From contig JANYCU010000045.1 in assembly GCA_025360125.1 (NCBI GenBank), positions 124,001 through 188,000 on the forward strand: 64,000 nucleotides of DNA, read 5' to 3'. Source of the DNA: Armatimonadota bacterium (GTDB lineage: Bacteria; Armatimonadota; Fimbriimonadia; Fimbriimonadales; Fimbriimonadaceae). Both the position numbers and the translations under genes were made by a program. The notes under the pieces are model-generated. The model saw only the letters and a program-made list of their open reading frames with translations. It was not told where the DNA came from and did not search any database. Of the stretch, positions 16,232 through 18,859 are shown one piece after another (position 1 is the first letter of the stretch; each line of letters starts with the position of its first letter).

Positions 16232-17065
16232 TTAATCAAACTTCTGCAGTTCGTCGACTCGCACGACAATCGCCGTCGTGTTGTCGCTTCCGCCGCCCAA
16301 CAACGCCGCTCCAACCATTTTCCAGGTCGCCGCCGCCGGGCCGTTTGAAGCCAAAATCTGCTGAATCTGGTCGTCTTCGACGTGGTTCATGACCCCGTCC
16401 GAACAAAGGAAGTAGATGTCGCCTTCGTGAATCTCAAATTCGTAAACATCGCATTGAACGTGCTCATCGATCCCAATTGCCCGGGTGATTACATGTTTTT
16501 GGGGATGGACCGCCGCTTGCTCGGGAGTCAACACGCCCATGCGGATCATCTCGTGCATGTACGTATGATCCTCAGTAATTTGGGTTAGTTCGCCGTTACG
16601 AAGTCGATAAGCCCGAGAGTCGCCAACCTGAGCCACATAGGCCATGTTTTGAAGCAACACCATCGAAGTCATTGTAGTGCCCATTCCCTTTCGGGCGGCG
16701 ACGGATCGCGAGACGAGATAGACGTATCGGTTAGCCGCGGCGACCGAATCAACGAGGGCATCCTTCACATCAATGGCGGGGTGGTTGAGATAGACATCAA
16801 TGAATGTTTTGCACGCGAGCTCGGAGGCAATTTGCCCGGCTGCGTGTCCGCCCATGCCATCGCAGACTACGAATACTTGTCCGCGGGAAGCGAGGGTCAC
16901 TTCGTCGTCGGGAACGTAAAATTCAAACTTATCTTCGTTGTTTTCGCGCACCCGTCCGAGGTCGGTTTTGGCCGCGACGGTGCACTTGGCGAGAGCCTTG
17001 AGTTCCGCAGGCGGAAGTAGGTCCCCAACGGCGTATTCCGCAGTTATCTCGTCCATGCTGGTCAT
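16232..17065 (-). CDS. PP2C-type serine/threonine phosphatase
   Basis: 277 residues of the PPM/PP2C fold, a metal-dependent phosphatase that would remove phosphate from Ser/Thr. Motifs in order: RVRENNEDKFEF (about 39), VFVVCDGMGGHAAGQ (about 64), GDSRAYRLRNGELTQITEDH, LCSDGVMNHV and GGSDNTTAIVVR, which together provide the metal aspartates. The ATG overlaps the stop of the FHA gene (ATGA), so the two are translationally coupled; the phosphatase probably acts on FHA-recognised phosphothreonine proteins. It is the last gene of the gatB operon. Confidence 0.94.
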   Translation of the reverse strand: MTSMDEITAEYAVGDLLPPAELKALAKCTVAAKTDLGRVRENNEDKFEFYVPDDEVTLASRGQVFVVCDGMGGHAAGQIASELACKTFIDVYLNHPAIDVKDALVDSVAAANRYVYLVSRSVAARKGMGTTMTSMVLLQNMAYVAQVGDSRAYRLRNGELTQITEDHTYMHEMIRMGVLTPEQAAVHPQKHVITRAIGIDEHVQCDVYEFEIHEGDIYFLCSDGVMNHVEDDQIQQILASNGPAAATWKMVGAALLGGGSDNTTAIVVRVDELQKFD

Positions 17066-17967
17066 GCTACCACGGCTCGTTTGATGTGGAGGCTGATCGC
17101 ACCGATCTGAATCACGTCACTTTCGGACATCAAGGTCCGCATGTTGGGAGACAGTCGTGACTCGTTCAAACTTGTTCCGTTGGTCGAACCGATGTCGGTG
17201 ACATAAATTCCGTCCTCCAAGATTTCGATTGTGCCGTGCTTACCGCTGATATACGGGTCGACAATCGCAACATCGTTGTCGGTCTTTCGGCCAAAGGTGT
17301 TGAGACCAAGCTTCAAAGGAAATTCTTTGCCGTCCCACGTAAGGATCGCCGGAGAAGTCTGCTTTTGCGGTGCAGCCGAGATTGCGGCGGTTTTATTGCC
17401 ACCAAACGCTTGGGTGGTGTTTCCACCGCCCACGCCTGGCAGTTGAATCGCCACTTCGAGGCCCGCAAACGAAATTCTATCGCCACCCGCAAGCGCAACT
17501 TTTTCGCCTACCGTGATGGATCTGCCGTTGACGCTCGTCCCGTTTGACGACCCAAGGTCCTCAAGCGATAACGCACCGTCGTTGTTATGAATTTGGGCGT
17601 GTCGTCGGCTAATTCGCGAATCCATGAGCGAGATGTCGCCTTCTCGACCAACAACGGTCGTTCCAGGTCGCAAAGGATGCTCGCGGCCGCTTTGTTCGAC
17701 CAGCATCGGCAGTTGCACCGCAGGCGCGCCAAACGCGTCTCCGGGCAATGCACGATCAAAAATAAGGCCGCAGTCGACGCAGAACATAACACCGACGGGG
17801 TTAAAGGTTTTACAAACGGGACATTGAACTGGCTTAATGGTGACGGTCGCATTGATGGTTGCGACGGAGCCCATCATCGTCTTATTCGGATCAAAATTCG
17901 GCGCGGGTGCCATCATCGTTCGGTTGGGATCAGATCCGATCATTTGGGTTCGATTTGCATCACTCAT
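17062..17967 (-). CDS. Dual FHA-domain protein with zinc ribbon and repeated Thr motifs
   Basis: 301 residues. The first 33 carry three repeats of D-x-N-[R/K]-T-x-M with threonines at 7, 17 and 30 (DANRTQMIG, DPNRTMMAP, DPNKTMMGS). A zinc ribbon follows (CPVC at 49-52, CVDC at 63-66). FHA domain 1 is at about 90-155 (VVGREGDISLMDSRISRRH, then GSSNGTSVNG) and FHA domain 2 at about 208-275 (FGRKTDNDVAIVDPYISGKH, then GSTNGTSLN). FHA domains bind phosphothreonine, so the N-terminal threonines may be kinase targets bound by the same or a second molecule. A good Shine-Dalgarno (TAAGGA) precedes the ATG. The partner phosphatase overlaps its stop. No kinase is in the window. Confidence 0.9.
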   Translation of the reverse strand: MSDANRTQMIGSDPNRTMMAPAPNFDPNKTMMGSVATINATVTIKPVQCPVCKTFNPVGVMFCVDCGLIFDRALPGDAFGAPAVQLPMLVEQSGREHPLRPGTTVVGREGDISLMDSRISRRHAQIHNNDGALSLEDLGSSNGTSVNGRSITVGEKVALAGGDRISFAGLEVAIQLPGVGGGNTTQAFGGNKTAAISAAPQKQTSPAILTWDGKEFPLKLGLNTFGRKTDNDVAIVDPYISGKHGTIEILEDGIYVTDIGSTNGTSLNESRLSPNMRTLMSESDVIQIGAISLHIKRAVVA

Positions 17968-17979
17968 TACAGCTGTTCC

Positions 17980-18249
17980 TTATAACGAGACGTCGTTGAG
18001 ACGCTCATAAATTTCATTTTCGGTAAATCCTTCGATTCGAAGAGTCTTTTCTCGCGAAGTTTCTCCTCGAATGATCATAATTTTGCTTTTTGCAACCTTA
18101 AGAGCCTTCGAAAAAAGCTTTACGACCGCGTCATTCGCTTCGCCATCGACCGGAGGAGCATTGACCCAGGCTCGAACTTTCTGGTTCTCTATTACGATTT
18201 TAGCCTGAGATGACTTTGGTTGAACATAAATCACGATGTCAACGCTCAT
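17980..18249 (-). CDS. DUF167 (YggU-like) protein
   Basis: 89 residues that match DUF167 over the full length: IYVQPKSSQAKIVIENQKVR, then NAPPVDGEANDAVVKLFSKA and MIIRGETSREKTLRIEG. It is a small conserved alpha/beta protein of unknown biochemical role found across bacteria and eukaryotes. It lies 13 bp after the TPR gene and 12 bp before the FHA gene, inside the gatB operon. Confidence 0.9.
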   Translation of the reverse strand: MSVDIVIYVQPKSSQAKIVIENQKVRAWVNAPPVDGEANDAVVKLFSKALKVAKSKIMIIRGETSREKTLRIEGFTENEIYERLNDVSL

Positions 18250-18262
18250 AAGAAATCCGTTG

Positions 18263-18859
18263 TTATTTTCCGCCCGCCGCGATTTTTGCTTTCACGCGTT
18301 TGATGTTCGCGATAGGAGTCAATTCCTTGGGAAATCGTTTGAGTTCTAATTCCCAAGTTCGGATAGCGTCTTGCAACTTGCCGCTTCGTTCGTAGGCCCG
18401 GGCCAAAACCCGATAAGTGTTTTGAGTTGGATTCTTCGATAGGGAGGCTCCCAGATATTTAATCGCGTTCGGATAATCCTTCAGGTTGTAGTATGCGTTT
18501 CCGGCCGGAAACATTGCGTCGCCCCAATTTGGATGGCGGTTGGCGAAGTCAACGTAAACATCAATAGCCTCCATCGGAAGTTCAATGTTTTCGAGCATCC
18601 AACCCAGGTTGGTGCAAATGTCGTAGCTATGGGGCTGGTAGCCAGATTGAACCCTTAGCAACGAAACGCAGGATGGAAATTCACCTAATTCATACCAAAT
18701 GTCAGCCTGATTGTTGATTCTGGTATCAACGTGCCCCCAGATCTCATTGATCCGATCTTGCGAGACGTCACTCGTCGGCTTTGCCGCAGTCTTAGGTTTG
18801 GAACTCCCAGCTTGAGGGTTCAGGACAAGAGCAATGGCGGCAACAGTGATGAGACCCAA
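18263..18859 (-). CDS. TPR-repeat exported protein
   Basis: 198 residues with a hydrophobic N-terminus (GLITVAAIALVLNPQAG) and several tetratricopeptide-like repeats in the rest: DIWYELGEFPSCVSLLRVQS, GNAYYNLKDYPNAIKYLGAS and ARAYERSGKLQDAIRTWELE. It is probably membrane-anchored or periplasmic and acts as a protein-interaction scaffold. The start is a TTG at 18859 with AGGA 7 nt upstream inside the gatB stop region; gatB ends only 8 nt before it. Confidence 0.78.
   Translation of the reverse strand: MGLITVAAIALVLNPQAGSSKPKTAAKPTSDVSQDRINEIWGHVDTRINNQADIWYELGEFPSCVSLLRVQSGYQPHSYDICTNLGWMLENIELPMEAIDVYVDFANRHPNWGDAMFPAGNAYYNLKDYPNAIKYLGASLSKNPTQNTYRVLARAYERSGKLQDAIRTWELELKRFPKELTPIANIKRVKAKIAAGGK

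Follow-up and report, generated by a model that had tools for sequence, protein, structure and literature searches.

The closest known system to the locus described here is the archaeal pair ArnA-ArnB (Saci_1210/1211), which works with ArnC/ArnD and PP2A in the archaellum regulatory network of Sulfolobus. ArnA is built from a zinc ribbon and an FHA domain; its zinc finger loosely holds unphosphorylated ArnB, its FHA domain tightly binds the phosphorylated C-terminal bundle of ArnB, and the assembly is driven by the kinase ArnC and reversed by PP2A (PMC12852372, PMC7472852, PMC6509490). FHA domains in general bind pThr and mostly do not recognize pSer (PMC6509490). According to the ArnA-ArnB authors, the ArnB architecture is found elsewhere mostly outside processes that involve multiple phosphorylation (PMC12852372), and a bacterial counterpart complete with kinase, phosphatase, and target motif would suggest a wider reach of the principle.

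Bacterial systems share separate features with the protein at the center of this study, P0001, a zinc-ribbon FHA-FHA protein. GarA/OdhI of the Actinobacteria are FHA proteins with a kinase-target Thr in a disordered N-terminal tail, an arrangement that we predict for P0001 as well, but they have one FHA domain, an ETTS motif, and metabolic enzymes as targets, and they lack a zinc ribbon and a vWA partner. Conversely, the P0001 tail has no ETTS-type double Thr motif, and with 301 residues P0001 is not a small single-FHA protein. The cytoplasmic module of Rv1747 from M. tuberculosis combines two FHA domains with a disordered Thr stretch whose phosphorylation promotes clustering; in contrast to P0001, it is part of an ABC transporter, carries its sites between the FHA domains, and has no vWA partner. 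Among the matches listed, the actinobacterial FhaA-FhaB-PstP-RodA-PbpA-PknA-PknB locus shares the order FHA-FHA, PP2C, Hanks kinase and differs in having neither a vWA gene nor a DPN[RK]T tail. Cell-wall genes sit within that actinobacterial locus, whereas in P0001-type loci (e.g., L099 and L288) the kinase gene follows PP2C directly or nearly so, with no intervening RodA or PbpA. TerY-P-like triads also bring together a kinase, a PP2C, and a stand-alone vWA protein, and the available part of the source does not describe them with an FHA reader whose tail bears Thr motifs (PMC7159879).

The window analyzed here is a stretch of 64,000 nucleotides from an Armatimonadota bacterium, and the features of its FHA locus are collected in Table 1. 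The original prediction had placed T7, T17, and T30 of P0001 in DxN[RK]TxM motifs ahead of a zinc ribbon and a pair of FHA domains, an anatomy borne out by the minus-strand reading frame and by Pfam, which finds the FHA domains in two stretches (E 1.5e-34). Across 22 diverse orthologues, the pThr-pocket residues expected of an FHA domain (GR, SxxH, NG) are invariant in both domains, as are zinc-ribbon Cys 49/52/63/66; the ribbon motif is present in 90/90 orthologues, and the Pfam DZR match to it is sub-threshold only. In an AF2 model made from a three-sequence alignment, both FHA sandwiches mostly reach pLDDT 75-87, residues 1-40 lie at about 34, and the linker 179-203 falls below 50; the tail (1-45) and this linker are predicted to be disordered. 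The closest solved folds to the model are FHA domains, and they include those of MDC1 and Bdellovibrio DgcB, each with its own N-terminal phosphopeptide bound.

Table 1. Features of the FHA locus, in positions of the window
Feature	Position	Strand	Basis
P0001, zinc-ribbon FHA-FHA protein, 301 aa	17062..17967	-	ORF, Pfam, orthologues
Motif copy 1, D3-A-N-R-T7-Q-M9 (DANRTQM, Thr7)	17941..17961	-	sequence
Motif copy 2, D13-P-N-R-T17-M-M19 (DPNRTMM, Thr17)	17911..17931	-	sequence
Motif copy 3, D26-P-N-K-T30-M-M32 (DPNKTMM, Thr30)	17872..17892	-	sequence, orthologues
Fourth site, degenerate, INAT41VTIKP	17830..17856	-	orthologue conservation
Zinc ribbon, C49-x2-C52-x10-C63-x2-C66-G	17767..17823	-	invariant Cys in orthologues
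FHA domain 1, about aa 92-176	17440..17694	-	R108, S120, H123, N142 invariant
Inter-FHA linker site, GGNKT193AAI	17380..17403	-	orthologue motif
FHA domain 2, about aa 207-297	17077..17349	-	R227, S241, H244, N263 invariant
PP2C phosphatase gene	16232..17065	-	Pfam, DGMGG and GSDN motifs
YggU/DUF167 gene, upstream of FHA gene	17980..18249	-	neighbor in some family members
TPR protein gene	18263..18859	-	neighbor in some family members

The PP2C gene that had been described as coupled to P0001 is indeed so, with an ATGA common to the FHA stop and the PP2C start (a 4-nt overlap, 17062-17065), and PP2C adjoins the FHA gene at most orthologous loci. The phosphatase is recognized by Pfam (E 1.4e-12) and has the fold and the metal-binding motifs of PP2C. 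An apparent FHA-PP2C fusion gene in genome G010 (open frame 865) proved on checking to be two distinct ORFs. The YggU/DUF167 and TPR genes are not part of the mechanism proposed below. The operon's flanking genes, which vary by family, gave no clue to a physiological output, and no T6SS genes were recognized among the neighbor genes looked at.

P0001 has a match in 178/291 genomes of the phylum (E below 1e-20), nearly always in single copy, and 90 distinct orthologues were extracted for conservation analysis, 68 of them from the window's own and nearest family. Conservation of the N-terminal Thr among orthologues was the check on which the original prediction was to stand or fall. In the 68 near orthologues, the residue following DxN[RK] is Thr in 157/157 cases and Ser in 0, a count over related sequences and not over independent events, as are all those given here. 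Thr30 is at least 90% conserved among the 22 diverse orthologues. The best-conserved Thr of the tail is T41, kept in 89/90 orthologues and located 8 residues N-terminal to the first zinc Cys; together with T193, it adds to the three sites first noticed. The linker pattern [RK]TxA[IM], which contains T193 here, is found between the FHA domains in 50/68 near orthologues. The observation is correct and stronger than first stated, and the condition set for its refutation clearly does not hold. The absence of Ser at the Thr position of the tail and linker motifs is consistent with FHA domains that read pThr, and kinase preference could be another contributor.

Copy number and position of the motif are less constant than its Thr: among the 68 near orthologues, full DxN[RK]Tx[ML] copies number three in 26, two in 29, one in 10, and none in 3, with differing spacing, and in more distant orthologues the tail motif degrades to ERTxx, DRTQM, or ATQxM. 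At the DNA level, the copies in P0001 differ from one another at synonymous positions (AAT/AAC; ACC/ACG), so they are not a fresh DNA repeat, and recent duplication is ruled out as their origin. Chance is ruled out as well, by the invariance of the Thr, by shuffles of P0001 residues 1-48 (0/300,000 with at least two motifs), and by a scan of the 4.13-Mb genome. The DNA pattern used in that scan was slightly wider than the motif and matched nine times: three times in P0001, once in P0002, and five times at places that either do not encode R/K or lack a credible reading frame. Two Zn-FHA-FHA orthologues, L288:3762-5021 (+) and L286:1577-2731 (+) of families f10 and f19, have a DnaJ-like domain at the N-terminus (Pfam DnaJ 7.4e-12 and 2.7e-11, respectively), and inspection by eye did not reveal the canonical HPD there; the likeness of the tail DPNK to DPNKREEYD in the J-domain of one orthologue is considered a coincidence.

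Apart from P0001, a single gene of the genome contains DxN[RK]TxM in frame. It encodes the vWA protein P0002, on another contig than P0001, and the N-terminus of P0002 reads MDLTQKIDINRTVMAGAP...DMNRTSVMAP. Two EKT[VL]MG motifs (KAIEKTVMG and SAEKTLMGT) lie in the C-terminal helix region of this protein. P0002 has matches in 171/251 genomes. Among vWA orthologues, the N-terminal D-x-[NL]-[RK]-T has Thr in 74/74, the C-terminal EKT[VLM]MG sites are conserved, and the last C-terminal motif, KTL[MIL]G, is present in 45/48 sequences (Thr in 44, Ser in 1), one of the 48 probably being a piece of the copy in the window's genome itself. The P0002 profile (87-429) matches ArnB (8s05_A, 44-365; E 5.5e-13) across the vWA domain, the beta-sandwich, and the helix bundle. 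In an AF2 model of one vWA orthologue (L252), the C-terminal helices reach pLDDT 82-93, the remainder of this single-sequence model being unreliable.

P0001 and P0002 resemble ArnA and ArnB in having a reader with an N-terminal zinc ribbon followed by FHA and a partner composed of vWA, beta-sandwich, and C-terminal helix bundle. Thr sites in the partner's C-terminal bundle, and a kinase and phosphatase for the pair, are predicted as further likenesses. The P0001 profile matches the ArnA FHA domain (1.1e-14), with the match covering the FHA part only. The bacterial proteins differ in other respects: the phosphatase is PP2C instead of PP2A, the ArnB sites are TT-rich helix sites whereas those here are K-T-x-M motifs, and repeated Thr motifs at both N-termini and extra membrane FHA genes occur here. 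Since ArnA has one FHA domain and P0001 two, we describe the module as working like ArnAB and do not file it as ArnAB.

Gene order in other families links these proteins. In genomes outside the window's order, the FHA gene is immediately preceded by a vWA gene in 43/45, a kinase gene lies at most 4 kb downstream in 29/40, and vWA, FHA, and kinase genes all occur together in 28; two membrane-FHA genes often precede the vWA gene in this operon of other families. In family f4, from the same order as the window's genome, the series membrane-FHA, membrane-FHA, vWA, FHA, PP2C runs unbroken. In the window's genome, the run is broken between vWA and FHA, no kinase gene stands at the FHA locus, and the parts lie on separate contigs. 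The module genes are dispersed in this lineage, and vWA-FHA adjacency in family f3 is 0/8. Two reduced genomes of the window's family (G132 and G133; 1.5 Mb, 97% complete) have no FHA, vWA, or kinase gene match, which is consistent with the joint loss of one module. The switch had originally been called self-contained, a description that is too narrow because the operon in other families holds a vWA protein, two further FHA proteins, and a kinase. With the motif also in trans on the vWA protein and the kinase away from the locus, P0001 looks like one component of a complex that is turned on and off reversibly, and not like a self-sufficient switch.

There are two Pkinase matches in the window's genome, P0003 and P0005. 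P0003 has HRDIKPDN and DFG and is a canonical kinase. P0005 (L127:502-2277 (-), contig C39), which carries PASTA domains, has HGDVGPHN without HRD or DFG and from its sequence looks like a pseudokinase, which would leave one canonical Pkinase in the genome. P0003 is therefore probably the kinase of the P0001 module in this lineage. Its activation loop reads FQPNLTMDG and, with few exceptions, F[QE]PN[LI]TMDG in its family; the resemblance to the tail motif DPN[RK]TMM is short and suggestive only, and an LTxxG-like stretch in the activation loop is common to many bacterial kinases.

On balance, we think it likely that P0001 serves as the reader in a pThr-controlled complex of FHA and vWA proteins that operates in the manner of archaeal ArnA-ArnB. 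The Hanks kinase P0003 would phosphorylate the Thr of K/R-T-x-M/A motifs on the P0001 tail and linker, as well as Thr at the N-terminus and in the C-terminal helix bundle of P0002. The FHA domains of P0001 would bind the resulting pThr residues, for the most part in trans, to give a tight or multivalent complex, and the two membrane FHA proteins encoded in the operon of other families would probably bind them too. The zinc ribbon might provide a loose, phosphorylation-free contact, as it does in ArnA, and PP2C, co-translated with P0001, would strip the phosphates so that the complex dissolves. Weighing against this reading are the separate contigs in the window's own genome and the lack of adjacency in f3, along with the differences from ArnAB in FHA number, phosphatase, and site type and the shortness of the activation-loop likeness. 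We put forward more tentatively that a bacterial module of the ArnAB type spans the phylum, in which one kinase/PP2C pair adds and removes a private pThr code (K/R-T-x-M/A) common to an FHA protein, a vWA protein, and two membrane FHA proteins, giving a membrane-tethered multivalent assembly. A bacterial counterpart of ArnAB would be compact and testable, with few kinases and few motif-bearing proteins, and one sequence motif would predict both kinase sites and FHA ligands. A literature search among open-licence papers found none joining Armatimonadota, FHA domain, and threonine kinase.

The same Thr sites could serve P0001 itself, its phosphorylated tail folding onto or bridging its own FHA domains and leaving them blocked or oligomerized, as in GarA/OdhI or MDC1. 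The tail is predicted to be disordered and lies near the FHA domains in sequence, several tail sites face two such domains, and precedents exist in the N-terminal ETTS motif of GarA (PMC5448819) and in the fold neighbors MDC1 and DgcB. However, a vWA partner bearing the same motif and a conserved operon favor a hetero-complex, and we regard a purely homotypic switch as doubtful; cis binding of the tail may coexist with binding in trans, so that both readings may hold together. A multivalent scaffold or condensate, in which many pThr tags and several FHA domains would cross-link P0001, the two membrane FHA proteins, and the vWA protein into membrane-tethered clusters, would extend the ArnAB-like complex without excluding it. 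Copy number of one to three at variable spacing, the extra linker site, the PT[MV][MA] repeats that the membrane-FHA protein P0004 has in its linker, the membrane-FHA genes that other families have in the operon, and the clustering of mycobacterial Rv1747 (PMC10906006) all point in this direction, but high valency is not always kept (10/68 near orthologues have one full motif and 3/68 have none), and we judge clustering of this kind rather unlikely.

Two further readings are less probable. The motif might be a binding peptide that acts independently of phosphorylation, for example at the vWA MIDAS site, given that the Asp of DPN could coordinate a metal and that vWA MIDAS sites bind extended peptides (PMC7159879). 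Yet the Thr is the most constant residue, whereas distant families have lost the Asp and Asn, pThr-reader domains occupy the same chain, and the vWA protein itself carries the motif, all of which make this proposal improbable. A phage-defense kinase system comes into view through P0003, which matches the PD-T4-6 kinase models of PADLOC. Those models seem to match Ser/Thr kinases generically, there are no matches for P0001 or P0002, and the FHA gene, in contrast to a mobile defense island, is present in one copy and conserved phylum-wide; we consider a role in defense very improbable indeed.

The window's own genome holds other FHA proteins. A membrane protein on contig C26 (L138:1544-3058 (-)) has two FHA domains, the first missing the usual Ser (VVPQH), and linker repeats PTMM/PTVM/PTVA/PTMA. 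Two near-alike proteins, each ~800 aa long and with an FHA domain at the N-terminus, are encoded on contigs C14 (L141:455-2866 (-)) and C13 (L142:3646-6063 (+)). Finally, a small FHA protein on contig C42 (L143:3870-4316 (-)) has a Thr-rich N-terminal tail and is GarA-like in size and layout.
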